Assembly (NCBI RefSeq): GCF_017468685.1
Contig: NZ_JAFUHT010000030.1
Location: 1-64,000 of the forward strand
Direction: 5' to 3'
From: Methanobrevibacter sp.
GTDB lineage: Archaea; Methanobacteriota; Methanobacteria; Methanobacteriales; Methanobacteriaceae
DNA length: 64,000 bases
A program made the translations under genes and the position numbers. A model generated the notes under the pieces. The model was not told the origin of the DNA. It saw nothing but the letters and a program-made list of their open reading frames with translations, and searched no databases. Shown piece by piece: positions 71 to 36,647 of the stretch (the stretch's first letter is position 1; each line of letters begins with the position of its first letter).

Positions 71-1117
71 ATGTATGGTGAAGATTTAGTTTTAATTAGT
101 TCGTTTCATAGGTTTATGGGTCATTCCAGAAATTCCGTTAAGGCATATAATAGTGCATTTAACAAGTACAGGTCTTTTCACAATATGTCTTTGACATCTC
201 TTCTGGCGGAGGCAATCAAAGAGCAGGATGATCATGTTCCTCAAAATCGATTGAAGTTGTATGATCGTTTGATGGGTTTTAGACAGTTTTTGATTGACAA
301 TCACACTGGAAAAACCATATCTTCGAATTTGTCTAAAATCAAGACTTTTTATAAGTATAATCATGTGAAATTGCCGGTTATTCCTCCAATCAATACTAAA
401 AATATCCGTAAGAATCCTTGCATTTCATATGATGACCTGTTAACCAAATCTGAAATTAAAAAGGCTTTAAAGGTTGCTGATGATAATGTTGGCATGTGGA
501 TTTATGTCATGCTTTCAAGCGGATCATCCAGAAGTGAATCCAAAGGACTGACAAATAAAACATTTTATGAGGGTACATTCGAATACCATAAAAAGGACAG
601 TTTCAGGGATGCTTTGAGGTTTCTTTCAAAAAAGGATAATGTAGTTTGCACCTGTAGTTTGATTCGAAAAAAGACCGGCAGGCCATTTTATACTTTTCTT
701 GGTCCTGAAGCGGTGCAGTTCATCTCAAAAGTCAAACTAAAAAATAAGGATTTTAATTTGGATAATTCTTTGCTTGAGGGCAGTTTGGATTATGTTGGTC
801 GTAAGTTCCGTTTCATCAATGATTATCTGGATTTGGGTTATGCCGGTGGCTACAGACGGTTCCGTCCCCATATGCTTAGGAAGTTCAATGCAACATACCT
901 GAATCATGAAGGGGTTAAATCTGATCTGCTTGATATGGAAAGCGTTGACACTTTGCATGGAAGGGGCAAGGACTCGACAAGGGAGTCCTATTTTAAGGAC
1001 AATCCGAATGTTTTGAAATTATCATACATAAAGTGCATGAGCAATGTTTCACTTTATCATAAATACTCTTGGGAAATTGTTGGCGGTGAAGTTATCGTTT
1101 ACTCACAGAAACTGTAA
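71..1117 (+). CDS. Tyrosine recombinase / phage-type integrase
   Basis: This 348-residue protein has the layout of a tyrosine site-specific recombinase. An N-terminal core-binding-like helical part (about residues 1-100) precedes a catalytic domain. Candidate catalytic residues are R154 in SSGSSRSESKGL, H267 and R270 in RPHMLRK, H296 in LHGRG, and nucleophile Y307 in STRESYFK, in the correct order and spacing. The family cuts and rejoins DNA at short recombination sites. It lies immediately upstream of an ATPase/TOPRIM-like pair and a toxin-antitoxin module, which fits a mobile or formerly mobile segment. No att site could be identified. The start ATG has only an AT-rich sequence before it, so leaderless translation is likely. 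The sequence is divergent, so the host element cannot be named. Confidence 0.8.
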   Translation: MYGEDLVLISSFHRFMGHSRNSVKAYNSAFNKYRSFHNMSLTSLLAEAIKEQDDHVPQNRLKLYDRLMGFRQFLIDNHTGKTISSNLSKIKTFYKYNHVKLPVIPPINTKNIRKNPCISYDDLLTKSEIKKALKVADDNVGMWIYVMLSSGSSRSESKGLTNKTFYEGTFEYHKKDSFRDALRFLSKKDNVVCTCSLIRKKTGRPFYTFLGPEAVQFISKVKLKNKDFNLDNSLLEGSLDYVGRKFRFINDYLDLGYAGGYRRFRPHMLRKFNATYLNHEGVKSDLLDMESVDTLHGRGKDSTRESYFKDNPNVLKLSYIKCMSNVSLYHKYSWEIVGGEVIVYSQKL

Positions 1118-1335
1118 AGTAAATGAATATATAAATTGAAACTATTAATTTTAATTTAATCTCTTTTTATTTTTTTTAATAGTATTTTCTAATAATGGTT
1201 ATATTTTTGTAATTGATATACAGGAAAATATTGCTTTTGAGTGTGTAAAATTGTTTTCATTTGCAACTGAAATTATTTAAATGATAAGATTCAAATTGTT
1301 TAATTGATTGTTAAGATTATTATTTTCATTATTTT

Positions 1336-2565
1336 ATGGTTTTGATTGAAATGTATGTGTCTAAAATTAGAGTAAAAAATTTTAAAACATTTGATGATGT
1401 TTGTTTGGATTTAAATAAATTCAATGTTTTAATAGGAGCTTGTGGTTCTGGTAAAACAAATTTCATTCAAGTATTTGAATTGTTAAATGACATATCATAT
1501 GATTTTCATGATGCTATTAAAAAGCATGGTGGAGGATATGTGAAAAACTTTAATTTACTTGAAAACAATCTTGAATCCTGTATTGAAGTACAATTCTCAA
1601 ACATCAACAAATCAATCAATTTAGGTTCAAATAAAGACATTTTACTTTCATTTAACAATGTGGATTATGAAATATGTTTCAATTTTTACCATGACGAGTG
1701 CAATGTTGGAAATGAGATTGTCAAATTAACTTGCAATGTTGAATATGAAAATAAGCAAATTGAGGACAATGAAATCATTATCAAAAACAATAATGGAGAG
1801 ATTAAAGTTGAATTTCTAAATGATTTAGAGGATTTGGAAATATCTGAAATAATTCCAGATACTTTAGCAGATATTGTTTCACAAAACTTCAAAAAGGACA
1901 ATACTCCAATTATAAATTCAGCATTGGCCACAATACCTGTTAAATGGGGTGATTTTTTTAAAAACATTTCCTCTTATGATTTTGATCCGAAATTCTGCAA
2001 AAACATCAACACCACAGGCAATGAAAAGTTAACAAAATATGGTGGAAACCTACCAATCGTTTTAAAAAACATTTTAAATGATGAAAATCGCAAAAAAGAG
2101 TTTCTAATATACTACACCAACCTGCTGCCTTACATTAAAGAAGTGTCTGTTGAAAAAGTATTGGATGAGGAACGTATTTTCATGATTATTGAAAAGTATA
2201 ATGATGTTAAAATCCCTGCACCATTTATTTCAGATGGAACCAGCTCAATAATGGCAATTTTAATTGCACTTTACTTCCAAGACGGTGAAATCATATTGAT
2301 TGAAGAACCTGAAAGACATATTCATCCTTCACTAATTAATCAACTGATGTTGATGATGGAATCAGTAGACAAACAGGTAATCGTAACAACACACTCTCCG
2401 GAACTTTTAAAATACTCTGAATTAGAAGATATATTATTCATATCCCGTGATGACAATGGATTTTCAAACATTAAAAGAATCATTGATAGTGATGTTGTAA
2501 AACCGTTCATTGATGAGTTGGGTGTTGATAGTGTTTTCGTTAATGACTATTTGGGGCTTGAATAA
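1336..2565 (+). CDS. AAA ATPase of the OLD/ABC type, probable defence ATPase
   Basis: This 409-residue protein starts like SMC/RecF/OLD-type ATPases (KIRVKNFKTFDDV) and carries Walker A GACGSGKTN near residue 37. Its C-terminal ABC signature and Walker B region reads SDGTSSIMAILIAL followed by ILIEEPERHIHP, then an H-loop-like VIVTTHSPELL. It is therefore a dimerising ABC-type ATPase that probably acts with a partner nuclease. The next gene begins directly after its stop codon and encodes a TOPRIM-like protein, so the two probably form one operon and one complex. An internal ATG at 1351 is an equally good start by comparison with the family. Codon use is very A/T-rich, like other accessory genes here. 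Whether it is a phage-defence ATPase is inference from the pairing. Confidence 0.75.
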   Translation: MVLIEMYVSKIRVKNFKTFDDVCLDLNKFNVLIGACGSGKTNFIQVFELLNDISYDFHDAIKKHGGGYVKNFNLLENNLESCIEVQFSNINKSINLGSNKDILLSFNNVDYEICFNFYHDECNVGNEIVKLTCNVEYENKQIEDNEIIIKNNNGEIKVEFLNDLEDLEISEIIPDTLADIVSQNFKKDNTPIINSALATIPVKWGDFFKNISSYDFDPKFCKNINTTGNEKLTKYGGNLPIVLKNILNDENRKKEFLIYYTNLLPYIKEVSVEKVLDEERIFMIIEKYNDVKIPAPFISDGTSSIMAILIALYFQDGEIILIEEPERHIHPSLINQLMLMMESVDKQVIVTTHSPELLKYSELEDILFISRDDNGFSNIKRIIDSDVVKPFIDELGVDSVFVNDYLGLE

Positions 2566-3096
2566 ATGAAGAATCTTTTTGTATTTGTTGAAGGAAAAGA
2601 GGACATCATGTTTGTTAAAAATGTTTTATATAACATATTTATCAAACGTTCCATTAATATTATTCCAATACCTTATCAAAGAACAAGAAATCATGAGGTT
2701 AAAAATCATATTAAAGCATCTAAGGCGGGTAATCATGATTATGTCTTGTTAAGCGATATGGATAGTCATAAATATGAATGCATCACTTCCAGAAAAAATC
2801 AACGTATTAAGGAGGTGGATGGTGAAATTACTCCTGATAAGATTATAATTGTTGTTGAAGAGCTTGAAAGCTGGTGTTTGGCAGGTATTGATGAGAGTAT
2901 TGAGGAATATGCTGATTTTATCGTTCCTGAAAACACAGATAATATCACAAAGGAAGATTTTGATGAAATTCTTTCAAATACTTCATTTAATAAAAATAAA
3001 ATCTTTAATTATTTAAGCTTTAATTTTAATGTAGATTTGGCTGTCAAAAGAAATAAATCATTCAAATACTTCTTAGAAAAATATGATATAATCTAA
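2566..3096 (+). CDS. TOPRIM-like / DUF4276-like partner of the ATPase
   Basis: This 176-residue protein begins FVFVEGKEDIMFV and then has LLSDMDSHK, the Glu and Asp-x-Asp pattern of a TOPRIM metal site. A later VVEELESWCLAG resembles the conserved E-x-E-x-W segment of DUF4276-type proteins. Such domains are nucleases or nuclease-like partners of OLD/ABC ATPases. Its ATG abuts the stop codon of the ATPase gene with no gap, so translation is probably coupled. A strong hairpin followed by T residues ends the unit at 3095-3120. The exact family was not confirmed; DUF4435 or RloB-like proteins are alternatives. Confidence 0.6.
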   Translation: MKNLFVFVEGKEDIMFVKNVLYNIFIKRSINIIPIPYQRTRNHEVKNHIKASKAGNHDYVLLSDMDSHKYECITSRKNQRIKEVDGEITPDKIIIVVEELESWCLAGIDESIEEYADFIVPENTDNITKEDFDEILSNTSFNKNKIFNYLSFNFNVDLAVKRNKSFKYFLEKYDII

Positions 3097-3120
3097 AAAT
3101 AGTTGTTTTCTATTTTTTTT
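3095..3120 (+). terminator. Terminator of the ATPase/TOPRIM operon
   Basis: An eight-base stem (AAAAATAG at 3095-3102 and CTATTTTT at 3110-3117) encloses a seven-base loop and runs into a T tract. It begins at the stop codon of the upstream gene. Confidence 0.6.
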
Positions 3121-3166
3121 ATGTATTCATCTGTTTTTCAAAAAAAGGGGAATTGGGAAAAATTAT

Positions 3167-3399
3167 TTATTTCCCAATCATGCTTTTAAGGCTGTCAATG
3201 TCAAACTTAAGTCTGTCAAGTTCTAGCATCAGTTCGTTTTTCTCGTTTTCTATTTTGATAAATTCCGCTGATTTGACGTGGAGTTTTTTGACTTCAGTGT
3301 TGATGGTTACATCAAATAAATGTTCAATGTATGTGTATTTTAAATCTTCAGGGTTGATTATGAAGTATGCTTAATCAGTCTTGTTTTGGCATTACTCAT
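3167..3399 (-). pseudogene. Frameshifted small coiled-coil gene
   Basis: On the minus strand an ATG at 3399 opens MSNAKTRLIK and quickly meets a stop. One base out of frame, reading continues from about 3372 as AYFIINPEDLKYTYIE and then EVKKLHVKSAEF, ending in a coiled-coil-like stretch and GK-stop at 3167. Adding one base around 3371-3373 would give a continuous protein of about 77 residues. The gene is therefore either a frameshift pseudogene or contains a sequencing error. No function is recognised. Confidence 0.5.
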
Positions 3400-3630
3400 A
3401 ATAATTTTTTTTAATGAATGGGTTCATTTCTTATCTTAATATTGGTAACTGCTCATTTTTTAAGATTTATAAAACTTTTTCATAAAATTTGCTTTGGATG
3501 GTAAATTACTATTTGTATTACCAAAGGTACTGTAATTACTATTTTGACTGTCATTCATAATCAATTTCCACAGTCAAGTTGATAAGTTTATGGGAATTTT
3601 TTATAGGATTTATTTTTTCTTCATTTCGTA

Positions 3631-3702
3631 AGTAGGGTGGTATCACCAGTTTCCCGCACAAGGCATCGTATAGATGTCTTTGCTTATTTTTTCTTTTTTT
3701 TT
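3631..3702 (+). ncRNA. Structured 52-nt repeat, copy 1, with T tract
   Basis: The element 3631-3682 contains a first small hairpin (GGTG-gtat-CACC), a conserved TTTCCCGCACAAGG core, and a second hairpin with a GTATA loop. In the second hairpin CAAGGCATC pairs with GATGTCTTTG, leaving one bulged base. A T-rich tract follows to 3702. A second copy at 4547-4598 keeps the same fold with different but still pairing bases. It may be an elaborate terminator or a small RNA. Confidence 0.5.
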
Positions 3703-4003
3703 AATAATTTAAGTTTTATTTTATTGATATATTATTTTTAAGTATATTTATTCAAAATTATGTTTAATTTATCAGTTTTGTTTCTTTTAGGATATTTTTA
3801 TCAAGTTATTTTTTTTATTTTTGTGGTGTGTTTTTGTGTAAAATCGCACTTCCAAAAATTTCATTATTTTAGAAAATAATATTCTTAATTAGAATTTCTC
3901 TTAAGTTTTTCATTTCCAAGAATGATATTAAATATATTTAATTACAATAATTATAAATAATATATTCAATATAACTGGTGTATATAATTAACTTCAATGT
4001 ATT

Positions 4004-4008
4004 GGAGG
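4004..4008 (+). promoter_or_regulatory. Strong ribosome binding site of the antitoxin gene
   Basis: A perfect GGAGG lies seven bases before the ATG at 4016. It fixes that start codon over later in-frame methionines. Confidence 0.7.
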
Positions 4009-4015
4009 ATTCGCT

Positions 4016-4252
4016 ATGGCAATGAAAACAATTCGTGTAACTGAAGAAATTCATACAAAACTAGCTCACTTGGGTTTAAAATCCGAAACATACAATGATA
4101 TTATAGCTAGATTAATTGAGGTGTATGAAAGAATGTATTTTGATGAATTAAGTGATGAAGACGCAGATTACTATAATGAAAGGATTAGGCATTTTGAAAG
4201 CGGCGACTACAGCGGCACCAGAAAAGTTGATTTAAATGCCCTCAGAAAATAA
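4016..4252 (+). CDS. Antitoxin, VapB/CopG-like (DUF7557 type)
   Basis: This 78-residue protein begins MKTIRVTEEIHTKL, followed by SETYNDIIARLIEVYE. That is the ribbon-helix-helix-like start typical of archaeal COG1753 antitoxins. The acidic C-terminal part would wrap the toxin. It overlaps the toxin gene by 17 bases, the usual antitoxin-first arrangement, and has a strong Shine-Dalgarno sequence. Such antitoxins bind the toxin and repress their own promoter; autoregulation here is inferred. The pair is flanked by two copies of a structured repeat, which suggests that it moved in as a cassette. Confidence 0.8.
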   Translation: MAMKTIRVTEEIHTKLAHLGLKSETYNDIIARLIEVYERMYFDELSDEDADYYNERIRHFESGDYSGTRKVDLNALRK

Positions 4253-4538
4253 TTCTGAAGTGAATTATGAACTTTTTGAAGATAGAAAGGCAATTAAATT
4301 CATGGATAAAAATTCTGATGATGAAAAATTGATAAAGAGGATACATGGCAAATATTATCAATTGGCTGTTGACCCATATAAAGAGGCAGAAAGTTCATTT
4401 AAAAGCAGAAAATGTCCTAAATGTAAAAAAACAAGGGTGGGAGATTATAGGATTATATATTTCATCAATGAATCAACTAAAGAGGTTGAGATAATTGATA
4501 TTAGTCCTAGAAGGTCCATCTATAAAAAATGGAATTAA
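4236..4538 (+). CDS. RelE/ParE-superfamily toxin
   Basis: This 100-residue protein ends with VGDYRIIYFINE and VEIIDISPRRSIYKK, the C-terminal strand pattern of RelE-type mRNA interferases. It follows and overlaps the antitoxin gene. Unusually, a KCPKCKKTR segment sits just before the core GDYR motif, giving one CxxC pair that could bind metal or form a disulfide. It probably inhibits translation by cleaving mRNA at the ribosome when free of antitoxin. The exact subfamily is unproven. Alternative internal starts, for example at the Met near residue 23, cannot be excluded. Confidence 0.75.
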   Translation: MPSENNSEVNYELFEDRKAIKFMDKNSDDEKLIKRIHGKYYQLAVDPYKEAESSFKSRKCPKCKKTRVGDYRIIYFINESTKEVEIIDISPRRSIYKKWN

Positions 4539-4546
4539 TTTTTAAA

Positions 4547-4617
4547 AGTAGGGTGGTTCCACCCTTTTCCCGCACAAGGAATCGTATAGATTTCCTTGTT
4601 TCTTTTTTCTTTTTTTA
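4547..4617 (+). ncRNA. Structured 52-nt repeat, copy 2, with T tract
   Basis: The second copy spans 4547-4598, starting eight bases after the toxin stop codon. Hairpin 1 is GGGTGG-TT-CCACCC. Hairpin 2 pairs CAAGGAATC with GATTTCCTTG around a GTATA loop with the same single bulge as copy 1. Base changes relative to copy 1 preserve pairing. A T-rich tract follows, so it could end the toxin-antitoxin transcript. Confidence 0.55.
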
Positions 4618-5023
4618 AGGTATTATTTGGCACATGTTGTCTCATTGTTGAAAAAATGCCAAATGATTTTTTTAGACATATTTTTATATGTAAATACTCA
4701 TTTTTTAGGAATTATGAAACTTTTCATTTAAATTCTATTTTTTTAAGATTTATTTTGAATGGTAAATTTACTATTTACAAAATTACACCCAAAGTGAGAT
4801 TCATCCTCGACTTCTACAAAGTCGGTAGTTCAATTTTAAAAAATCACAAATTTTTAGTGTAGAATATTTCACAAATTTCCAAAAAGCATTAAAATCGAAT
4901 TAATCGCCATATTAACTACAAATTGATGGAATTAGCAATCCAATATTCATCACAAAAAAGCTAAATTATCTATCTTTTAGCAGTTGCTCTAAACTTAAAT
5001 ATTTTCAAAAACAATATATTACC
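4618..5023. other. Non-coding stretch downstream of the toxin gene
   Basis: About 400 AT-rich bases. An 88-codon open frame at 4596-4862 starts inside the structured repeat and lacks a ribosome binding site and coding-like composition, so it is not called. Part of the stretch (about 4690-4800) resembles 3450-3530 upstream of the toxin-antitoxin pair. Confidence 0.5.
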
Positions 5024-24707: not shown

Positions 24708-25958
24708 TTGACAACTAGAAGTATCGGCCATATCAATCAAAAGATTGAAAACGGCGAAGCTAACATATATACGGCAGAAGAGTTTAAAAAACTCATAAAT
24801 AAAGGTGACACACCAAGTTTCGATGAGGTTGATGTTGTAACTGCAGGAACATGCGGAGTAATGAGTGGTACAGCAGCGATACTTAACTTCATCGTATCAC
24901 AACCTGGAGAATTCATAAGGGCCCGTGAAGTATTCCTTAACGGAATTCCGGCATATGCAGGACCATGTCCGAATGAATGGCTTGGGGCATTGGATGTAAT
25001 TCTTCATGGAACAACACATTCAATAGATGACGATAACTATGGTGGTGGATTCCTTCTCAAGGAACTGCTTGAAGGAAAACCAATCGATGTGCGTGTTGAA
25101 AGTGTTGAAGGAAAAACTATCGAAAATACGATTACAATTGATGATATTGGAAGAGGTCAAATAATCGGAACACGTATGGCATTTAAAAACTACACTGCAT
25201 TTGTAAATTCATATAATGATCCTATAAGCTCAATATTTTCAGGAATTCCTCTTGAAGGTAAATTATCAGGTATGACATTTTCAGGATGCGGTGCACTAAA
25301 CCCTCTTCAAAATGATGTACCTCACAATGTGATTAAAGAAGGATGCAGATTCCTGTTAAATGGTGCTGAAGGTTATATTTTAGGGGATGGAACACGTTCC
25401 AGTGCTGAAAAACCAAACCTTATGCTGACAGCTGACTATAAACAGATGGATCCGTATTACATTGGAGGATATAAGACAGGGCAGGGCGGAGAAGTCTATG
25501 ATACTGTTGCAATACCTATTCCTGTTATAAATGAGGAAGTCTACAATAACTTGCTCATAACGGATGAGGATGTGAAATTGCCTGTAGCTGAAATCAAGGG
25601 TCGTCACTTGCCGGTCGGTGAAACAAACTATTATGAAATGTGGAAGGATTATGATTTAAGACCTCAATATGACAGAACTGCATGTTCAAAGTGTGACACA
25701 TGTACAGTGGAAAGAGTATGCCCTACAAATGCGTTTAAGGATGAAAGACTTAACCCCGCATTATGTTTCGGCTGCGGATTATGTGCACATTACTGCAGGC
25801 ATGATGCCTTTGAGATGAACACCGGAGAAGTGGAACTTGAAATCAACGGCAAAAATGTCAATATTCCGATTGTTTGCAGACAGTCAGACAGACTTAGAGG
25901 AAATAAATTGTCCTTGAAACTTAAGAAATTAATTGAAAATAATGAGTTTAAATTATAG
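24708..25958 (+). CDS. Methanogenesis marker 16-type metalloprotein (HcyBio/DUF39 plus ferredoxin), copy 1
   Basis: TTG start with GGGGAG seven bases upstream. Residues 1 to about 320 match the DUF39/homocysteine-biosynthesis family (VVTAGTCGVMSGTAAIL, FSGCGALNPLQND, AEGYILGDGTRSSAEKPN). About 325-375 carry two 4Fe-4S motifs (CSKCDTCTVERVCP, CFGCGLCAHYC). Members of this family act in homocysteine synthesis from aspartate semialdehyde in some methanogens; the exact role of the marker-16 branch is less certain. It heads the first hdrCBA cassette, eight bases before hdrC, so it is probably co-expressed. A near-copy heads the second cassette. Confidence 0.85.
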   Translation: MTTRSIGHINQKIENGEANIYTAEEFKKLINKGDTPSFDEVDVVTAGTCGVMSGTAAILNFIVSQPGEFIRAREVFLNGIPAYAGPCPNEWLGALDVILHGTTHSIDDDNYGGGFLLKELLEGKPIDVRVESVEGKTIENTITIDDIGRGQIIGTRMAFKNYTAFVNSYNDPISSIFSGIPLEGKLSGMTFSGCGALNPLQNDVPHNVIKEGCRFLLNGAEGYILGDGTRSSAEKPNLMLTADYKQMDPYYIGGYKTGQGGEVYDTVAIPIPVINEEVYNNLLITDEDVKLPVAEIKGRHLPVGETNYYEMWKDYDLRPQYDRTACSKCDTCTVERVCPTNAFKDERLNPALCFGCGLCAHYCRHDAFEMNTGEVELEINGKNVNIPIVCRQSDRLRGNKLSLKLKKLIENNEFKL

Positions 25959-25966
25959 GTGGTTAT

Positions 25967-26569
25967 ATGACTGCTCAACAGAAGATTACAGACTCACCAA
26001 TTGATTTTGCAGAAGACATAATCGGGGATGTTAAAAATTCAAGAGATGACGGAGTTCTGAAGTGCGTTCAGTGTGGAATGTGCACATCAACATGTCCTGC
26101 TGCAAGACACTCTGATTATAATCCTCGTGAAATAATCGAAAGAGTACTGGATGGTGATGTATCCATCATTGAAGATGACAATATCTGGAACTGTTTTTAC
26201 TGTTATACCTGTCACAGTGTATGTCCTGTTGGAAACAGCGTATGTGAAGTCAACCAGATATTAAAGCAGTTTGCAATAGCTCACAATATTGGTTTTGATA
26301 AGTTATATGAATACATGGGATTTGCAGACTCATACTTCACAGCGGCAATTGGAGCAATACCTGAAATATTCTTTGAAGACATTGACCGAGACGTGCCGGG
26401 ATGGTGGGATTTCAGACAGAATCTGGATGAAATCCGTGACGAATTGGAACTTGACCCACCTTTGATGCCTCCTGAGGATGTTATTGATGAGGTCAGTAAA
26501 ATATTGACAATCACCGGTTTTAAATCAAAAATCGAAAGAATAAGAGCTTCACAGGAGGATGAATCATGA
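25967..26569 (+). CDS. hdrC: CoB-CoM heterodisulfide reductase subunit C, copy 1
   Basis: HdrC is the small iron-sulfur subunit that passes electrons from HdrA to HdrB, where CoM-S-S-CoB is reduced in the last step of methanogenesis. The 200 residues contain two classical 4Fe-4S motifs (CVQCGMCTSTCP and CFYCYTCHSVCPVGNSVC). Length is typical for the cytoplasmic type. The stop overlaps the hdrB start by ATGA, as in the second cassette. Codon use is richer in G/C at third positions than in copy 2. Confidence 0.93.
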   Translation: MTAQQKITDSPIDFAEDIIGDVKNSRDDGVLKCVQCGMCTSTCPAARHSDYNPREIIERVLDGDVSIIEDDNIWNCFYCYTCHSVCPVGNSVCEVNQILKQFAIAHNIGFDKLYEYMGFADSYFTAAIGAIPEIFFEDIDRDVPGWWDFRQNLDEIRDELELDPPLMPPEDVIDEVSKILTITGFKSKIERIRASQEDES

Positions 26570-27507
26570 AAAATGTTCCAGATAATGATTTGCTTTTGTT
26601 TAGAAGCTGTCTTGTGAGCGTTGAATATCCTGGTGTTGAAGCATCAACAAAATATGTATTTGAAAAACTGGGAATTGATTATGCAATTTCAGACAAACAG
26701 ACATGCTGCACAGGACTTGGCCATTACTCAGATGTGTTCTCACAGTTGGATACAACAGCCATCGGAGCACGTAACTTCCGTCTTGCACGTGAAATGGGAA
26801 GGCCTAATCTGGTTATGATGTGTGCAACATGCTATGCAATAAACAAGAAATCAGTTAAACTGTTAAATAAAAAGGATGATTTGAGATGCAAAATCAATCA
26901 GCTGTTTGATGAGAACGGTTTAAGTCATCTGAAATATGAAAAGGATGACCTCAAACCGACTGAAAACATTTTCCATGTTGTGGATATATTATACGGTAAA
27001 AAGGATGAGATTAAAAATCATATCAAATATGATTTAAGTGAATACAAGATAGCAACTCACCATGGATGCCATTACTGCAAGGTGCATTATGAAGATACAA
27101 TTGGTGGTGTAAGAGATCCGAATATCATTGATGAGCTGATTGAGGAATGTGGCTGTGAAACTATCGGATGGTATGACCATAAAAGGGCAACCTGCGGAAC
27201 AGGATTCAGACAAAGATATTCAAATCCTGAGCTGTCTTTTACAGCAACAGCTGATAAAATGAATGCAATAGCTGATGAGGATGTTGATATTCTTGTTCAT
27301 TTATGTCCGAACTGCCATATACAGTTTGACAGGTATCAACACTTAATAAGTAAAAGAGAGGGTAGGAATTTCAGAGCAATACATTTGAATATTGCTCAGT
27401 TCATTGCACTTGCAATGGGTGGTGACTTTGATAGGGTAATAGGTGTTAAGGCACATACAACTCCAATTGATTCTGTAATTAAGGATTTAAAGGAGGTTGA
27501 AAAATGA
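26566..27507 (+). CDS. hdrB: CoB-CoM heterodisulfide reductase subunit B, copy 1
   Basis: HdrB carries the two noncubane 4Fe-4S clusters at which the heterodisulfide is cleaved. Both CCG-type cysteine domains are visible: LLFRSCLVS, KQTCCTGLGHYSD and MCATCYAIN, then HHGCHYCK, RATCGTGFRQ and CPNCHIQFD. Length, 313 residues, is close to the family norm. It overlaps hdrC and hdrA by four bases each, so the three proteins are made in step. Confidence 0.93.
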   Translation: MKNVPDNDLLLFRSCLVSVEYPGVEASTKYVFEKLGIDYAISDKQTCCTGLGHYSDVFSQLDTTAIGARNFRLAREMGRPNLVMMCATCYAINKKSVKLLNKKDDLRCKINQLFDENGLSHLKYEKDDLKPTENIFHVVDILYGKKDEIKNHIKYDLSEYKIATHHGCHYCKVHYEDTIGGVRDPNIIDELIEECGCETIGWYDHKRATCGTGFRQRYSNPELSFTATADKMNAIADEDVDILVHLCPNCHIQFDRYQHLISKREGRNFRAIHLNIAQFIALAMGGDFDRVIGVKAHTTPIDSVIKDLKEVEK

Positions 27508-29813
27508 GAGATGATTTGAAAGTTGGCGTGTTTTTATGTGAATGTGGAGGAAATATTTCGGATATTGTTGATGTGGATAAGGTCCGTGAAGAGTTGGATG
27601 TTGAATTTGTTGGGCAGTTCGAGAACCTGTGCTCACTTAATGGGCGTAAAATAATTCGTGATGCAATTTTTGACCATGATTTGGATAGGGTAGTTGTGGC
27701 TGCCTGCTCGCCGATTTCACATGAAAAAACATTTCAGGATTATGTAAAACCTCTAAACCCTTACCTGATGGATATGGCAAATATCCGTGAGCAATGCTCA
27801 TGGGTGCATGACAATACTGATAAGGCTACTCATAAGGCAATTACATTAATCAACGCTTCAATTGAAAAGGTAAAGCAGTCTGATGCTGTGAATCCAATTT
27901 ACTGTCAGACACCAGATGAAGTGGCTGTGATTGGTGGAGGAATAGCTGGAATGAATGCGGCATTGTCTCTTGCAAAGCAGGGAACAAAAGTGACTCTTAT
28001 TGAACAGTCTCCTTCAATCGGAGGGCACATGGCAAAAATAGGTAAGGTTTTTTCACCTGTTAAGATTGCTGAAGAGTGTGGAATGTGTCTTTTAAACCCT
28101 ATATTGAATGAACTTGTTTGGAATGAAAACATTGAAGTTTTAACTAATACTAAAGTCATTGAAGCAGAAAGGAGAGCCGGAACATATAATTTAATATTGG
28201 AAAAGTCTCCAAGATATGTTGATACTGAAAAATGTATAGCCTGCGGCAAATGTGCGGAAGTATGTGAAGTTGAAGTTCCAAATGACTGGAATGACAATCT
28301 TTCAATGCGTAAGGCAATTTACAGACCATTCGGACAATCCTATCCTGAAGCATATGTTATTGATATGGATAACTGTTCAAAATGTGGGGACTGTTTTAGA
28401 GCATGCAGCATGAGAGCCATTAAATTAAGGGGTAAAAGTGAAAAATTCCCTCTTCAAGTTGGTTCTGTTGTTGTTGCTACGGGTCATAAATTATTTGATA
28501 TGGAAAAACGTCCGGAATACGGTTATACAAGATATGATGATGTAATAACACAATCAGAATTAGGCCGTATTACTGGAGTTAATGGTCCAACTAAAGGTAA
28601 GCTTTTAAAATCTAATGGTGAAGTGCCTAAAAGGGTTGTTATGATTCAATGTGTGGGGTCACGTGATGAAAAGCCTGACGGTCACAGGTACTGTTCCAAA
28701 ATATGCTGTACCGTTGCACTCAAAAATGCCAATATCATCAAGCATAAATATCCTGATACTGATGTCTTGATATGCTATACTGATGTACGTACGCCTGGAA
28801 TGTTTGAAAAATACTATAAGCACACTCAGGAAAATGAAGTAAGATTCCTTCGCGGAAGACCGGGTGAAGTAGTTAAAAAAGGAGATAACTTTATAGTTAG
28901 AACCGAAGATACTTTAAAAGGGGAATTTATTGAAATTGAAGCAGACATGGTAGTGTTGTCTACTGCTATGGAGCCGTCAGAGGGTACTAAGGAAATTGCA
29001 GATATTTTAAATGTTGGTACTACTGAAGATGGATTCATTAAGGAATCACATCCTAAAATCAAGCCTGTGGCAACTGATGTTCAGGGTATATTTGTTTGCG
29101 GTACTGCTCATGAGCCTAAAGACATTACTGATTCAATCATGCAGGCAACAGCTGCTGCATCAAAAGTGAATGAGTATAATTATGGTGGTGTTGAAATAGA
29201 ACCGTTTATCGCAGAAATTGATCATGATAAATGCAGTTTATGTGGTGAATGTATTAGCCGATGTAAATATAAATCAATGAGTATTCAGGATGATCAAATA
29301 TATATTGATCCTATGAGCTGTACAGGTTGTGGAAAATGTTTGGTTGGTTGTAATCAGAGGGCTATTACTGTTAATGGTAATATTGATGAGAAGATTATGG
29401 CCACTATTAAAGGAGCATTATCTAAAAAACAGCCTAATCAGCGTATGATATTGGTTTTCCTTGATAATATTGGTTATACTGCAGCGGATAATATTGGGGT
29501 CAACAGATTATCCTATCCTGAATCCATTCATATTATTAAGGTAATTTCTGTGAATCGTGTAAGGCCGAAACATATTCGTTATGCATTGGATAATGGTGCT
29601 GATGGAGTGTTTATCGGAGAGTTCCCAGGTGATTTAATGTATGATGAGGTGGAACGTAAAGTTCAAAGAGTTAAGGACAGGATTGCAGAGATGGGTGAAA
29701 ATCCTGACAGGGTTACTTTTTCAAAAGTTTATATTCCTTACTTCTCAGGTCTTGCTCGTAAATTTAATGATTTTGATTTAAAAATTAAAGAATTGGATGA
29801 AATCGAATCTTAA
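27504..29813 (+). CDS. hdrA: CoB-CoM heterodisulfide reductase subunit A, copy 1, with Cys-less MvhD-like tail
   Basis: HdrA is the FAD subunit that bifurcates electrons from hydrogenase to ferredoxin and to HdrB. Visible are an N-terminal cysteine domain (FLCECGGNISD), the FAD Rossmann motif VIGGGIAGMNAALSLA, the unusual cluster ligands CVGSRDEK...YCSKICC, and ferredoxin motifs CIACGKCAEVCE, CSKCGDCFRAC, CSLCGECISRC and CTGCGKCLVGC. At 769 residues it is longer than the about 650-residue form of other methanogens. The extra C-terminal domain resembles MvhD/FlpD (NGADGVFIGEFPGDLMYDE), but the expected cysteines are replaced. The later half of the gene shifts to more A/T-rich codons. Confidence 0.92.
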   Translation: MRDDLKVGVFLCECGGNISDIVDVDKVREELDVEFVGQFENLCSLNGRKIIRDAIFDHDLDRVVVAACSPISHEKTFQDYVKPLNPYLMDMANIREQCSWVHDNTDKATHKAITLINASIEKVKQSDAVNPIYCQTPDEVAVIGGGIAGMNAALSLAKQGTKVTLIEQSPSIGGHMAKIGKVFSPVKIAEECGMCLLNPILNELVWNENIEVLTNTKVIEAERRAGTYNLILEKSPRYVDTEKCIACGKCAEVCEVEVPNDWNDNLSMRKAIYRPFGQSYPEAYVIDMDNCSKCGDCFRACSMRAIKLRGKSEKFPLQVGSVVVATGHKLFDMEKRPEYGYTRYDDVITQSELGRITGVNGPTKGKLLKSNGEVPKRVVMIQCVGSRDEKPDGHRYCSKICCTVALKNANIIKHKYPDTDVLICYTDVRTPGMFEKYYKHTQENEVRFLRGRPGEVVKKGDNFIVRTEDTLKGEFIEIEADMVVLSTAMEPSEGTKEIADILNVGTTEDGFIKESHPKIKPVATDVQGIFVCGTAHEPKDITDSIMQATAAASKVNEYNYGGVEIEPFIAEIDHDKCSLCGECISRCKYKSMSIQDDQIYIDPMSCTGCGKCLVGCNQRAITVNGNIDEKIMATIKGALSKKQPNQRMILVFLDNIGYTAADNIGVNRLSYPESIHIIKVISVNRVRPKHIRYALDNGADGVFIGEFPGDLMYDEVERKVQRVKDRIAEMGENPDRVTFSKVYIPYFSGLARKFNDFDLKIKELDEIES

Positions 29814-30089
29814 TTCTTTAATTATTTTTTTAATTAAATTTTTTTTGTTAATTAAATTAACAATTGTTATAAATGTTTATTTTTTCTATTTACAAAATTT
29901 AACATTGTATAATTAAAATTTAACTAATTATATTTATTTATTATTAAATATTGTTAAAATTAAAATATCTATTATTTTTTGTAATTTTTTTTAAACAATT
30001 TTTTGAATTTATCAATACTTTTAAATATATTGAAAACAAGATTATGTCTAGCACACCAAAAACTTTATTGAATAATGGAGGTTGATTTA
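29814..30089. promoter_or_regulatory. Intergenic terminator and promoter region before the DUF169 gene
   Basis: About 275 very AT-rich bases. A hairpin-forming GTTAATTAAATTAAC (29847-29861) next to long T runs probably ends the first hdr transcript. A TATA-like CTTTTAAATATATT near 30019-30032 probably starts the DUF169 transcript. GGAGG at 30077-30081 is the ribosome binding site that selects ATG 30090. Confidence 0.5.
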
Positions 30090-31100
30090 ATGTCATCTTT
30101 AGATTACACTTCTAAAATATTAAATCAAATTTTCACTGAAAAAAACTTTTCAATAAATACACAAAGATTATATCATAGATGCGTAGATAATTTTGAAGAA
30201 AAAACACAGGCAAAACTAGGTGAATTAATAACTATTTCACTTGTTGAAGGAAATAACAATGTTGATTGGACAAATACTACATTATTCACTAATCTAATTT
30301 GCTATAAAAAATATATTGATGAAATCTATAAAAATCAATCAGATATATATTTAAATCCAATACTTGCTATCTTTGAATATTTCGGTATTGAAATTCCAGC
30401 TTTAACTGACTCATCATTATACTCATATGAGTTTTTAGTTGAAAATCAAAGATATAGTGAAGTCATTGAAGAAAAAATTAATTTGGATTCAAAACCAGTT
30501 GCAATTAAATTAATAGATTCAGAAGATGAGATTCCTGAAGATGTTAAATTGATTGATGAGAAAATCAGACATTGTGAAATGGTTAGAAAGGCATCACTTG
30601 GAGAAAAATTTTACTCTACCTTAAAAGAACAGTTATGTCTTGGTGGAGCTGGCGCAATAGGTCTTCGTGATATGCCTGAAATGCTTGCAAGTGGGGAAAA
30701 ATATTATTCACTCGGCAGATTTAAAGATAAGGATACAGCAAAAGATTTAACATCTGAACTTTCTATTGTTGAGGATAAACATTGGGGAATAATTTATGCC
30801 CCATTAGATAAAGCTAATTTTGAACCGGATGTAATTGAAATTATAACTGAACCTGTCGGCGGAATGAAATTGGCTCAAAGTATTGTTTATTTCACTGGTG
30901 ATAAAATTGAATCATCATTTGCAGGAATTCAATCCTTATGTGGTGATGCATTTGCTGAACCATATGTTGAAAAGAATGTTAATTTCACATTAGGATGTGA
31001 CGGATCTAGAAAAGCTGCTGATATAAAAGATGATGAAATGACTGTAGGTATTAGTAAAGAAAAAATTGATGATGTTATTCTAGGTTTGGAATCCATTTAA
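30090..31100 (+). CDS. DUF169 protein with integrase-core-binding-like N-terminus
   Basis: ATG 30090 is chosen because GGAGG lies eight bases before it; the frame also holds an earlier ATG at 30075. The first about 90 residues (LNQIFTEKNFSINTQRLYHR to LICYKKYIDEIYKNQ) resemble the SAM-like core-binding domain of tyrosine recombinases. About residues 135-336 match DUF169 (KPVAIKLIDSEDEIPE, RHCEMVRKASLGEKFY, CLGGAGAIGLRDMPEM, FAGIQSLCGDAFAEPY, TLGCDGSRKAADI). DUF169 function is not established. It stands between the two hdr cassettes. Codon use is A/T-rich, like cassette 2. Confidence 0.7.
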   Translation: MSSLDYTSKILNQIFTEKNFSINTQRLYHRCVDNFEEKTQAKLGELITISLVEGNNNVDWTNTTLFTNLICYKKYIDEIYKNQSDIYLNPILAIFEYFGIEIPALTDSSLYSYEFLVENQRYSEVIEEKINLDSKPVAIKLIDSEDEIPEDVKLIDEKIRHCEMVRKASLGEKFYSTLKEQLCLGGAGAIGLRDMPEMLASGEKYYSLGRFKDKDTAKDLTSELSIVEDKHWGIIYAPLDKANFEPDVIEIITEPVGGMKLAQSIVYFTGDKIESSFAGIQSLCGDAFAEPYVEKNVNFTLGCDGSRKAADIKDDEMTVGISKEKIDDVILGLESI

Positions 31101-31522: not shown

Positions 31523-32776
31523 TTGAGTAATTATAGAACTATTGACCAAATCAATCAAAAGATTGAAAATGGTGATGCAAACATCTACACTGCAAATGAG
31601 TTCAAAAAGCTCATTAAAAAAGGAGATGCACCAAGTTTTGATGAAGTGGATGTAGTTACAACCGGAACTTGCGGAGTAATGAGCGGTACAGCTGCTATCC
31701 TAAACTTTATTGTTTCAGGGCCTGGTGAATTTATAAGGGCAGAAGAAGTATATCTGAATGGTGTTCCAGCACATGCAGGACCATGTCCGAATGAATGGTT
31801 AGGAGCTATTGATGTAATACTTCATGGAACAACCCATTCAATAGATGATCATAATTATGGAGGAGGATTTGTTTTAAAAGAACTCCTTGAAGGAAATCCT
31901 ATTGATGTAAGAATTGAGAGTGTCGAGGGTAAAACCATAGAAAATACCATTACAATTGATGATATTGGAAGAGGTCAAATTGTAGGAACCCGTATGGCAT
32001 TCAAAAACTACACTGCATTTGTAAACACCTATAATGAACCAATAAGTTCAATATTTTCAGCAATACCATTGGATGGAAACTGTTCAGGTTTAACATTTTC
32101 AGGTTGTGGAGCATTAAATCCATTACAAAATGATATTCCGCATAATGTGATAAAAACCGGTACAAGATTCTTATTTAACGGAGCTGAAGGTTATATTTTA
32201 GGTGATGGTACAAGATCAAGTGCTGAAAAACCAAACTTGATGCTGACTGCAGACTACAAACAAATGGATCCGTTTTATCTTGGTGGTTATAAAACCGGTC
32301 AAGGTGGAGAAGTTTATGATACTGTAGCAATTCCAATTCCAGTATTAAATGAGGAAATTTATAATAATTTACTTATAACAGATGAAGATGTCAAATTACC
32401 ATTAGCTGAGATAAAAGGACGTCACTTGCCATTAGGTGAAACAAACTACAAAGAAATGTGGGACGGATATGATTTAAGACCTAAATTTGACAAATCAAAA
32501 TGTCACACATGTAACAACTGTACCATTCAGGAAATATGTCCAACTAATGCATTTAAAAATAAACAAATTAACCTTGAACAATGTTTCGGTTGCGGATTAT
32601 GTGCCAATTACTGTGCATATGATGCATTTGACATGAATGTTGGAGATGTTGATTTAAAAATAAAAGGTGAAGACATAAATGTTCCAATTGTCTGCAGACA
32701 ATCTGATAGATTAAGAGGAAATAAACTATCAAAACAATTAAAAGACTTAATTGAAACACAGGAATTCACTTTATAA
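31523..32776 (+). CDS. Methanogenesis marker 16-type metalloprotein, copy 2
   Basis: TTG start after AAGGT. Its 417 residues align end to end with copy 1, with long identical stretches (VVTTGTCGVMSGTAAIL, EGYILGDGTRSSAEKPNLML) and the same two ferredoxin motifs (CHTCNNCTIQEICP, CFGCGLCANYC). The DNA is more diverged than the protein, mainly by third-position changes to A or T, so purifying selection acts on both copies. It is the first gene of the second cassette and is followed 15 bases later by hdrC. Confidence 0.85.
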   Translation: MSNYRTIDQINQKIENGDANIYTANEFKKLIKKGDAPSFDEVDVVTTGTCGVMSGTAAILNFIVSGPGEFIRAEEVYLNGVPAHAGPCPNEWLGAIDVILHGTTHSIDDHNYGGGFVLKELLEGNPIDVRIESVEGKTIENTITIDDIGRGQIVGTRMAFKNYTAFVNTYNEPISSIFSAIPLDGNCSGLTFSGCGALNPLQNDIPHNVIKTGTRFLFNGAEGYILGDGTRSSAEKPNLMLTADYKQMDPFYLGGYKTGQGGEVYDTVAIPIPVLNEEIYNNLLITDEDVKLPLAEIKGRHLPLGETNYKEMWDGYDLRPKFDKSKCHTCNNCTIQEICPTNAFKNKQINLEQCFGCGLCANYCAYDAFDMNVGDVDLKIKGEDINVPIVCRQSDRLRGNKLSKQLKDLIETQEFTL

Positions 32777-32791
32777 TAGGGTGTGGTTTAA

Positions 32792-33403
32792 ATGACTACT
32801 CAACAAAAATTATCAGATTCACCTAATGACTTTTTAGATGATATAATAAAAAATGTGAAAAACACTAAAGATGATGGTGTTTTAAAATGTGTCCAATGTG
32901 GATTATGCACATCAACCTGTCCGGCAGCACGTCACTCTGAATACAATCCTCGTGAAATAATTGAAAGAGTATTGGAAGGTGATGAAACAATAATGGAAGA
33001 GGATTATTTATGGAATTGTTTTTATTGTTACACCTGCCATAGTGTATGCCCAGTGGGAAATAGTGTATGTGAAGTAAATCAAATTTTAAAACAGTTTGCA
33101 ATTAATCGTGGTATTGGTTGGGATAAACTATATGAATACTTAGGATTTGCAGATAGTTATTTTGATGCAGCTATTGGTGCAATTCCAGAAATCTTTTTTG
33201 ATGACATTGCAAAAGATGTTCCAGGTTGGGAAGAAATAAGATTTGATAAATTAGATGAAAATAGGGAAAAATTAAATCTTTATCCTCCATTAATGCCTCC
33301 GGAAGATGTGATTGATGAAGTGAGTTTAATACTTACAATTACAGGATTTAAGGAAAGAATGGAAAAAATTAGAAAATCACAAGAAGCAGAGGTGAAAGAA
33401 TGA
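32792..33403 (+). CDS. hdrC: CoB-CoM heterodisulfide reductase subunit C, copy 2
   Basis: This is a close paralogue of the hdrC at 25967 (203 residues) with all ferredoxin cysteines kept: CVQCGLCTSTCP and CFYCYTCHSVCPVGNSVC. Differences cluster in the acidic C-terminal part (KDVPGWEEIRFDKLDENREK). It overlaps hdrB by four bases. It could form a second Hdr complex with other partners or simply raise dosage. Confidence 0.92.
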   Translation: MTTQQKLSDSPNDFLDDIIKNVKNTKDDGVLKCVQCGLCTSTCPAARHSEYNPREIIERVLEGDETIMEEDYLWNCFYCYTCHSVCPVGNSVCEVNQILKQFAINRGIGWDKLYEYLGFADSYFDAAIGAIPEIFFDDIAKDVPGWEEIRFDKLDENREKLNLYPPLMPPEDVIDEVSLILTITGFKERMEKIRKSQEAEVKE

Positions 33404-34341
33404 AAAATATTCCGGATAAAAATCTCCTCTTATTTAGAAGTTGTCTTGTAAGTGTTGAATATCCAGGCATTGAATCTTCAACAAAATATGTATTTGAAAA
33501 ACTGGGAATTGACTATGGAATTTCTGAAAAACAAACTTGCTGTACTGGATTAGGACATTATTCAGATGTTTTCGATCAAGTTTCAACATCAGCAATAGGA
33601 GCACGTAATTTCAAAGTGGCACAGAATCTTGGAAGACCTAATCTTGTAATGATGTGTGCAACATGTTATGCAATTAATAAAAAATCCGTAAAATTACTTA
33701 ATAATAAAGATGATTTACGTGAACACATTAATGAATTATTTGAAGAAAATGGTTTAGAACATTTAAAATATGAGAAAAATGATTTAACACCTACAGAAAA
33801 TATTTTCCATTTTGTAGATATTTTGTATGGCAAAAAGGATGAAATTAAAAATCATATCAAATATGATTTAAGTGAATATAAGATTGCAACTCACCATGGC
33901 TGTCATTACTGTAAAGTACATTATGAAGACACAATTGCAGGTGTAAGGGATCCGAATATTATAGATGAACTTATAGAGGCATGCGGTTGTAAAACTATAG
34001 GATGGTATGATCACAAACGTGCTTCATGCGGTACTGGTTTTAGACAAAGATATTCAAATCCTGATTTGTCATTTACAGCAACTGCAGATAAAATGAATTC
34101 TCTTAAAGATGAGGATGTTGAAATATTAGTCCATTTATGTCCTAATTGTCATATACAATTTGACAGGTATCAGCCTTTAATCTCTGAAAGAGAAGGTAGA
34201 GAATTTAAAGCTATACATTTAAACATTTCTCAATTCATTGCTATAGCAATGGGTGCAGATTGGGAAAGCGTTGTAGGTGTACAGGCACACACTTCTAAAA
34301 TAGATTCTGTAATAAAAGAATTAAAGGAGGTTGAATCATGA
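33400..34341 (+). CDS. hdrB: CoB-CoM heterodisulfide reductase subunit B, copy 2
   Basis: 313 residues, the same length as copy 1 and without gaps. The noncubane cluster motifs are intact (KQTCCTGLGHYSD, MCATCYAIN, HHGCHYCK, RASCGTGFRQ, CPNCHIQFD). Substitutions are mostly conservative, so it should be active. A/T-ending codons are favoured. It overlaps hdrC and hdrA by ATGA. Confidence 0.92.
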   Translation: MKNIPDKNLLLFRSCLVSVEYPGIESSTKYVFEKLGIDYGISEKQTCCTGLGHYSDVFDQVSTSAIGARNFKVAQNLGRPNLVMMCATCYAINKKSVKLLNNKDDLREHINELFEENGLEHLKYEKNDLTPTENIFHFVDILYGKKDEIKNHIKYDLSEYKIATHHGCHYCKVHYEDTIAGVRDPNIIDELIEACGCKTIGWYDHKRASCGTGFRQRYSNPDLSFTATADKMNSLKDEDVEILVHLCPNCHIQFDRYQPLISEREGREFKAIHLNISQFIAIAMGADWESVVGVQAHTSKIDSVIKELKEVES

Positions 34342-36647
34342 CTGATAATTTAAAAATTGGAGTATTTCTATGTGAATGCGGTGGAAATATTTCTGATATT
34401 GTCGACCTTGATGAAGTTCGAAAAGCTTTGAATGTGGAAGTTATTGAACAATTTGAAAACCTCTGTTCTTTAAATGGACGTAAACTCATACGTGATGCAA
34501 TTATTGAACGTCATTTGGATAGGGTTGTTGTAGCGGCTTGTTCACCAATTAGTCATGAAAGAACATTTCAGGATTATGTCAAACCATTAAACCCATACTT
34601 AATGGATATGGCTAATATTAGGGAACAATGTTCTTGGGTTCATGATGATAAAGAAAAAGCAACTAAAAAAGCAATTACATTAATTAAGGCATCTATTGAA
34701 AAAGTAAAACAATCCGATGAAGTTAATCCAATATATTGTCCAATTCCAGAAGATGTGGCAGTTATTGGTGGCGGAATTGCAGGAATGAATGCTGCATTAT
34801 CATTGGCAAAACAAGGAAAAAAAGTAACTATAATTGAACAGTCTCCATCTCTTGGAGGATACATGGCTAAAATTGGTAAAGTATTTTCACCAGTTAAAAT
34901 TGCTGAAGAATGTGGAATGTGTCTTTTAAATCCAATTTTAAATGATTTGGTATGGAATGACAATATAACTGTTTTAACTAATTCAAAAGTAGTTGAAGCA
35001 GACCGTCATGCAGGTACCTATAATTTAATTGTTGAAAAATCTCCAAGATTTGTTGATCCGGATAAATGTATTGCATGTGGAAAATGTGTTGACGTTTGTG
35101 ATATTGAAGTTCCAGATGATTGGAATGAAGGATTATCTAAAAGAAAAGCAATTTATCGACCATTTGGACAGTCATATCCTGAAGCTTATGTTATTGATCC
35201 TGATGCATGTACTAAATGTGGGGACTGTAAACGTCAGTGTATGATGGATGCAATCACTTTAAAACAGAAACCTGTAAAATTCCCATTGCAAGTTGGTTCA
35301 ATTATTGTTGCAACAGGTCATCAGTTAATAAATCCTGATAAAAGACCGGATTATTCATACTCAAGACATCCAGATATCATTACTCAAATGGAACTTGGAC
35401 GTATTACTGGTGTAAATGGTCCAACAAAAGGAGAACTATTAAAATCTAATGGAGAAGTACCTAAAAGAGTTGTAATGATTCAATGTGTTGGTTCAAGAGA
35501 TGAAAAACCTGATGGTCACAGATATTGTTCTAAAATTTGCTGCTCTGTTGCTTCAAAAAATGCGAATATTATTAAACATAAATACCCTGACACTGATGTT
35601 GTTGTATGTTATACGGATGTCAGAACTCCGGGAATGTTTGAAAAATATTACAAACACACTCAGGAAAACGGTGTAAGATTTTTAAGAGGCCGTCCTGGTG
35701 AAGTAGCAGTTAAGGGAGATGACTTAATAGTCCGTGTTGAAAATACAATTAAAGGTGAATTTGAAGAAATTGAAGCGGATATGGTTGTATTGTCAACAGC
35801 AATGGAACCGTCAGAAGGTACCAAGGAGATTGCAGAAATATTGAATATAGGAACAACAGAAGACCATTTCATTAAAGAGTCACATCCGAAAATTAAACCT
35901 GTAACAACAGATGTTCAGGGAGTATTTGTTTGTGGTACTGCACAGGATCCAAAAGATATTACAGATTCCATCATGCAGGCAACTTCCGCTGCATCTAAAG
36001 TTGCAGAATATAATTATGGCGGGGTTGAAATTGAACCATTTATTGCTGACATTGATCCTGAAAAATGTCAGTTATGTGGGGATTGTTTAGAAAAATGCAA
36101 ATTCAAGGCATTAAGTATAGTTGATGCATATGTTGTTTTAGACCCTATGAGTTGTGATGGTTGTGGAAAATGTTTAACTGTCTGTCAACATGGTGCTATT
36201 AATATTAACGGTAATATTGATGAGAAGATTTCAGCAACCATTGATGGTATTTTATCTGAAAAACAGGAAGGTGAACGTACTATTCTAGTTTTCCTTGATA
36301 CAATAGGTTATACTGCAGCAGATAATATTGGAGTTAACAGGATTTCATATCCTGAATCTATCCATATTATTAAAGTACATTCAGTCAATAGGATAAGGCC
36401 AAATCATATTAAGCATGCACTTGAAAATGGTGCTGATGGAGTATTCATTGGTGAATTCCCGGGTGACCTGATGTATGAGGAAGTTGAACGTAAAATCCAA
36501 AGGGTTAGAGAGGAAATAAGTGATTTTGGTGAAAATCCTGAAAGATTGGCATTTTCTAAAGTCTACATTCCGTACTTCGAAGGACTGGCCCGTAAATTGA
36601 ATGATTTTGATGATAAGATTGCACAATTGGATGGGACTGAAAATTAA
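34338..36647 (+). CDS. hdrA: CoB-CoM heterodisulfide reductase subunit A, copy 2, with Cys-less MvhD-like tail
   Basis: 769 residues, the same length as copy 1, with the FAD motif VIGGGIAGMNAALSLA, cluster ligands CVGSRDEK...YCSKICC and four ferredoxin motifs (CIACGKCVDVCD, CTKCGDCKRQC, CQLCGDCLEKC, CDGCGKCLTVC). The C-terminal MvhD/FlpD-like domain also lacks the expected cysteines (NGADGVFIGEFPGDLMYEE), so the change predates the duplication. The two copies differ most in the ferredoxin-linker regions and in the N-terminal 60 residues. Confidence 0.92.
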   Translation: MTDNLKIGVFLCECGGNISDIVDLDEVRKALNVEVIEQFENLCSLNGRKLIRDAIIERHLDRVVVAACSPISHERTFQDYVKPLNPYLMDMANIREQCSWVHDDKEKATKKAITLIKASIEKVKQSDEVNPIYCPIPEDVAVIGGGIAGMNAALSLAKQGKKVTIIEQSPSLGGYMAKIGKVFSPVKIAEECGMCLLNPILNDLVWNDNITVLTNSKVVEADRHAGTYNLIVEKSPRFVDPDKCIACGKCVDVCDIEVPDDWNEGLSKRKAIYRPFGQSYPEAYVIDPDACTKCGDCKRQCMMDAITLKQKPVKFPLQVGSIIVATGHQLINPDKRPDYSYSRHPDIITQMELGRITGVNGPTKGELLKSNGEVPKRVVMIQCVGSRDEKPDGHRYCSKICCSVASKNANIIKHKYPDTDVVVCYTDVRTPGMFEKYYKHTQENGVRFLRGRPGEVAVKGDDLIVRVENTIKGEFEEIEADMVVLSTAMEPSEGTKEIAEILNIGTTEDHFIKESHPKIKPVTTDVQGVFVCGTAQDPKDITDSIMQATSAASKVAEYNYGGVEIEPFIADIDPEKCQLCGDCLEKCKFKALSIVDAYVVLDPMSCDGCGKCLTVCQHGAININGNIDEKISATIDGILSEKQEGERTILVFLDTIGYTAADNIGVNRISYPESIHIIKVHSVNRIRPNHIKHALENGADGVFIGEFPGDLMYEEVERKIQRVREEISDFGENPERLAFSKVYIPYFEGLARKLNDFDDKIAQLDGTEN

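Follow-up and report, generated by a model that had tools for sequence, protein, structure and literature searches.

A repeat flanking a toxin-antitoxin module in Methanobrevibacter is a probable attachment site of integron-like cassettes anchored at the gdhA 3' end

An element found twice in the window, a 64,000-nt stretch of Methanobrevibacter sp. DNA, probably serves as attachment site in a cassette system of an integron-like, archaeal kind, as judged from comparison of sequences. A first-pass annotation had described two copies of a covarying, 52-nt structured element, placed in like orientation on both sides of a toxin-antitoxin module. Both copies are present on the forward strand, at 3629-3702 (covariance-model match of 96.2 bits) and at 4545-4618 (101.8 bits, the best in the genus), but the conserved unit is longer than described, ca. 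74 nt, and includes the T-rich end TTATTTTTTCTTTTTTT. The unit reads AAGTAGGGTGGTnnCACCnnwTTCCCGCACAAGGAATCGTATAGATTTCCTTGTTTATTTTTTCTTTTTTT, with nearly fixed spacing. A scan of the whole window revealed no other exact or near copy. Three further copies, in direct repeat and in a single orientation, are found on contig C31 of the same genome, and a related 68-nt form is found on its contig C46. The covariance-model search for further copies in Methanobrevibacter that the annotation had proposed was productive: ca. 90 additional matches were obtained genus-wide, and the element was found in 47 of 67 genomes, some of which have the gdhA end only. Given the C31 copies and the genus matches, the element is far beyond chance. 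Three pattern matches outside Methanobrevibacter (L032, Bacteroidales; L038, Thermoplasmata; L041, a viral contig) were without the palindrome and were judged to be due to chance, and a search of phage, plasmid and viral collections revealed no related site.

The element consists of two parts. Its left half, AAGTAGGGTGGTnnCACC, is cassette-derived and contains an arm (AAGTAGGGTGGTATCACC at 3630-3647 in copy 1, where it includes the annotated hairpin 1, and AGTAGGGTGGTTCCACCC at 4547-4564 in copy 2; both on the forward strand) that is kept in cassette sites and absent from gdhA ends. A 14-nt core, TTTCCCGCACAAGG, is identical in both copies (3650-3663 and 4566-4579) and runs into a palindrome, CAAGGCATCgtataGATGTCTTTG at 3659-3682 (hairpin 2 of the annotation) and CAAGGAATCgtataGATTTCCTTG at 4575-4598, both on the forward strand and both the same as the 3' end of gdhA. 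The origin of this part can be seen in the 68-nt form, the left half of which lies inside a protein-coding end, ...GANIAGFKKVVDAMNAQGIV-stop; the protein is glutamate dehydrogenase (PF00208, 1e-91). The right half common to the sites thus comprises the last codons of gdhA, its stop codon and the palindrome CAAGGAATCgtataGATTTCCTTG, and the shared block CGCACAAGGAATCGTATAGATTTCCTTG corresponds to the last codons, the stop and the remainder of the palindrome. In three related genera, single matches were obtained, each of them a gdhA 3' end with a like palindrome (mostly CAAGGAATCGTATAGATTCC); around these gdhA ends neither a cassette arm or head nor an array was found. Since the palindrome is found there without arm or head, hairpin 2 is probably the ancestral gdhA end. 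The direct repeats are equal to the 3' end of the target gene, which is restored.

In the window, the junction at copy 1 is between an upstream cassette's end and the head of the toxin-antitoxin cassette; at copy 2, the end of the toxin-antitoxin cassette meets a decayed remnant. All features that follow are on the forward strand. The tail of the upstream cassette (3505-3591) is 87.5% identical to the tail preceding a site in the gdhA array of genome G072, and a tail remnant past copy 2 (4692-4776) is 82% identical to the same G072 tail. Between the copies lie an antitoxin gene (4016-4252; DUF7557/VAPB_antitox-like, Pfam) and a toxin gene of the ParE_toxin family (4236-4538; PF05016, Pfam 7e-7), which stops 6 nt before copy 2. 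By these comparisons, the locus is read as an array in which an upstream cassette ends at copy 1, the toxin-antitoxin cassette is complete and reaches copy 2, and a decayed cassette follows. The annotation had considered cassette insertion by recombination, and this proposal is supported: the element is read as an attachment site and the toxin-antitoxin pair as one cassette of an array. Upstream, towards the contig edge, lie a tyrosine-recombinase-like gene (71-1117) and a candidate defence gene pair at 1336-3096 (AAA ATPase and DUF4276/TOPRIM-like; PADLOC HEC-01 models, 1e-44 and 6e-8); the pair is possibly the cargo of the upstream cassette. The window array does not adjoin gdhA, and gene order around ORF 5024 is not conserved in a synteny comparison. 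Since contig C46 holds gdhA and the C31 array ends at glnA, the window contig is probably a second target site, with the target gene off the contig.

Most genomes compared are fragmented assemblies. In at least 19 genomes, one or more cassette sites lie downstream of gdhA and on its strand; other arrays lie away from gdhA or are interrupted by contig ends. At each locus all copies are on one strand, and arrays reach five sites. This clustering in one orientation, mostly at gdhA, differs from the scattered placement in either orientation of dispersed repeats of the MITE or REP type. The intervals between sites (median 1440 bp in 41 measured) usually hold a single gene or a small operon, and open reading frames of at least 70 aa in them amount to 12833 aa on the array strand versus 309 aa on the opposite one (98%). 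The units are compact, ending a few nucleotides from stop codons, and no integrase genes were found in the mapped intervals. Their cargo differs among genomes and includes toxin-antitoxin pairs, GNAT proteins, an ATPase_2 protein, a TrkH-like transporter and adhesin-like proteins, as well as an AAA_14/DUF4143 protein (PADLOC candidate PDC-S01, 1e-148) and a PDC-S13 protein (1e-129), PDC families being computational defence candidates and not proven systems. Where an array has two or more cassette sites, the proximal one outscored the distal one in 28 pairs and scored lower in seven, and the first and last sites of eight gdhA-anchored arrays differed (Wilcoxon p=0.016). The simplest reading is that insertion adjoins gdhA and that older cassettes decay, since more decayed distal sites are expected if insertion mostly takes place there. 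G072 and the window genome share one 1.18-kb cassette (93% identity), which adjoins gdhA in the former and follows another site, on contig C74, in the latter.

Similarity between cassettes extends beyond the site. Heads of 220-250 nt are common to unrelated genes: the 250-nt head of the window cassette (3660-3909, forward strand) is shared with cassettes carrying unrelated ATPase genes and is 83% and 77% identical to the heads of ATPase_2 cassettes in G065 and G036, respectively. A motif within it, GTGTTTTTGTGtAAAATCGCACTTCCAAAA (3828-3857, forward strand), is present in most cassettes with this type of head, 55-143 nt past the site. A second head type was found on adhesin, GNAT, toxin-antitoxin and PDC-S13 cassettes, and some heads of this type hold another copy of the arm, GTAGGGTGGTATC. 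One toxin-antitoxin gene family occurs with either type. The sharing of heads by unrelated genes, and of one gene family by two heads, indicates that heads and genes are exchanged as modules.

Empty sites and distal junctions allow a putative exchange point to be placed. In G070, the glnA region directly follows gdhA; in the window genome, the C31 array ends in a site that enters the same flank (85% identity over 1531 nt). The last site in G081 has a cassette arm at its left and, from GCACAAGGCATTGTG on, matches the unoccupied gdhA end of G004, with homology beginning at the core and including the G004-type terminator AAGAGTTTTTAACTCTT. In G008 and G080, bases left of AAT at the distal junction are of the cassette type (CACCAGG and CACAGGG, respectively), and those to the right are of the chromosome type. 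From the G008, G080 and G081 junctions, exchange apparently occurs at AAT|CGTATAG inside the palindrome, between 4582 and 4583 in copy 2 (forward strand), a position that would fit a 7-bp overlap between inverted core sites. Taken together, the empty sites and the gdhA 3' ends that have been moved away suggest that exchange is reciprocal and takes place within the palindrome.

A candidate enzyme is found in G024, where a tyrosine-recombinase-like gene lies within 190 nt after gdhA. The gdhA end in this genome is joined to GTGATACCACCCTACTTT, the opposite strand of which is an exact 18-nt cassette arm, AAAGTAGGGTGGTATCAC. An alignment of the protein shows its R, K, HxxR and Y residues; Pfam and NCBIfam searches did not recognise it, its gene has an N-terminal frameshift, and the structure model has a pLDDT of 44. 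Decayed copies of this gene follow gdhA in G007, G019 and G088 (z of 17, 16 and 6, respectively). Most genomes with arrays lack the G024-type recombinase, and so does that of the window, where only distant relatives were found; we therefore infer that the arrays of the window genome are immobile or are served in trans.

Sequence comparison shows how the arrays are laid out. The gdhA 3' end bears a palindromic site spanning its stop codon, and cassettes, each of one gene or a small operon, end in the arm AAGTAGGGTGGTnnCACCnnwTTCC joined to a gdhA-type core, so that successive insertions build direct-repeat arrays downstream of gdhA. With each insertion gdhA gains a new 3' end equivalent to the old one (Gly-Ile-Val-stop), and the old end is carried to the distal limit of the array. 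The following mechanism is proposed. Excised cassettes would be circular, and strands would be exchanged around the point given above by a tyrosine recombinase of the G024 gdhA-side subfamily, with the arms presumably serving as its accessory binding sites.

Instead, separate integrative elements could have integrated in tandem at a single attB, the gdhA 3' end, each with an integrase of its own at first and since eroded to its cargo genes, and there would be no dedicated cassette system. We regard this as possible, though clearly less probable than a cassette system. The recombinase directly after gdhA in G024 and its decayed copies in three genomes are what it would predict, and tandem integration at one archaeal locus is already known (PMC8371274), but compact units that end so close to stop codons, heads common to unrelated genes and mapped intervals free of integrase genes all argue against it. 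Less likely still is that site-like repeats are spread and reshuffled by homologous recombination, with no site-specific recombinase acting now. Heads and arms do offer enough homology between cassettes for this, and relatives of the gdhA-type recombinase in the window genome are all distant; at the gdhA junctions, however, homology barely exceeds the site itself, exchange points fall inside the palindromic core, and the recombinase adjoining gdhA in G024 comes with the same arm sequence.

We also considered the element at the level of RNA. When the two copies were folded as single-stranded DNA, both lay well below dinucleotide-shuffled controls (z -3.75 and -4.37), and both strands of the site fold. 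Pairing is kept in 88% of cells, versus 40-54% in slid controls. Hairpin 1 is not universal, being missing from some well-conserved copies such as the first one on C31. The covariation described in the annotation was not confirmed: among 17 copies, just one pair was changed on both sides (A-U to C-G, three sequences), and covariation measures were not distinct from those of shuffled letters (37/500 and 48/500; 395/500 for double-change pairs). Compensatory changes above background, which mark a structured RNA family, were thus not seen, and an Rfam search matched no family. We conclude that the pairing mostly reflects sequence conservation, not RNA covariation. The reading that toxin-antitoxin and other operons end in the element as their transcription terminator or 3' RNA element, and that it was copied together with these operons, would account for the stable predicted fold and for a palindrome followed by a T-run, often directly past a stop codon, but it is very improbable and already disfavoured, given covariation no better than in shuffles, placement after unrelated genes, inclusion of gdhA codons, heads shared beyond the element and reciprocal exchange inside it at junctions. 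The palindrome with its T-run replaces the gdhA end and might stop transcripts there; the specialised terminator suggested in the annotation may thus be a side effect.

The cassette system, as we read it, resembles several known ones. For the archaeal integrons described to date, both attC folds and domains specific to IntI are reported (Ghaly et al. 2022, PMC9668308). As in integrons (PMC9668308), short genes stand in tandem on one strand between recombination sites, a single anchor (here the gdhA end) is combined with mostly polarised insertion, cargo includes toxin-antitoxin and defence genes, and sites are more widespread than the recombinase. Unlike in integrons, anchoring is at a housekeeping gene's 3' end, the last codons of this gene are part of the sites, and cassettes have long shared heads. 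The attC boxes RYYYAAC and GTTRRRY were found on neither strand of either window copy, and TIGR02249 (IntI) matched neither the G024-type nor related recombinases; another window recombinase matches it at 18 bits, the cut-off being 265. The system works like an integron but lacks both defining features tested, attC boxes and a recognised IntI. With archaeal tyrosine-recombinase elements at gene 3' ends (PMC8371274) it shares a gene-end target restored upon insertion, sites made of arm and core, and, in G024, an integrase beside one attachment site. It differs from them in its units, which hold one to few cargo genes and usually no integrase, and in arrays of up to five sites; an integrase gene lies beside gdhA in G024 alone, apart from the decayed copies. 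A 2.9-kb circular DNA of Methanobrevibacter smithii (PMC12134362) resembles the predicted cassette circles in being small and gene-bearing, in coming by excision from a Methanobrevibacter chromosome and in lacking a recombinase of its own; it carries metabolic genes and, according to its authors, no direct repeats. CRISPR arrays also grow in a polarised way beside an anchor, but here whole genes rather than spacers are added, by reciprocal exchange and not by repeat duplication.

On balance, we somewhat favour the broader interpretation that cassette capture of an integron-like kind evolved independently here, with a non-IntI archaeal tyrosine recombinase and a gdhA anchor, and spreads single defence and toxin-antitoxin genes among gut methanogens. 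A literature search, with most subscription papers and preprints outside its coverage, found no description of such a system. If the interpretation is true, this would be a second way of collecting single genes in an ordered array, found in a domain with few integrons, and would give gut and rumen methanogens a defined route to swap virus-defence and addiction genes. With a searchable site and an anchor gene available, unknown genes between sites become candidate mobile defence functions.

Other recombinase genes were also observed. One, at 71-1117 (forward strand; PHROG integrase, 2e-8, and catalytic-motif alignment), lies near the window array and belongs to a different subfamily from the G024 type; since its close relatives sit beside other genes, it was retained as a secondary candidate only. 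Two relatives (L141, on contig C6 of the window genome, and L208, in G075) adjoin a DUF3800-like gene and a GNAT gene, kinds of cargo that also occur in or next to gdhA arrays; this suggests cargo common to both systems. A XerA-like tyrosine recombinase at 60699-61784 (NF040815, 4e-27, under the cut-off) is distinct from the 71-1117 one. Three adjacent tyrosine-recombinase genes lie within ca. 3 kb on contig C117 of G085 (ca. 100-3300), and genomes of the genus have as many as 12 such genes.

Several further observations were made. A gdhA 3'-end fragment with palindrome follows a DnaK-like gene in G061 (L133, contig C5, 7215-7286), possibly left by an integrated element or a rearrangement. At L090 (2908-2983, contig C74 of the window genome) and L138 (contig C31 of G024), a diverged site, AAAGTAGGATGGTGTTG..., lies before a gene pair of the DUF3990/DUF3791-like kind; such a pair directly follows gdhA in G072. 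In the window, two four-gene heterodisulfide-reductase-like operons (416/417, 200/203, 313 and 769 aa) stand in tandem at 24708-29813 and 31523-36647, and a 341-aa open reading frame between them (30075-31100) has a start that resembles a tyrosine recombinase N-terminus.
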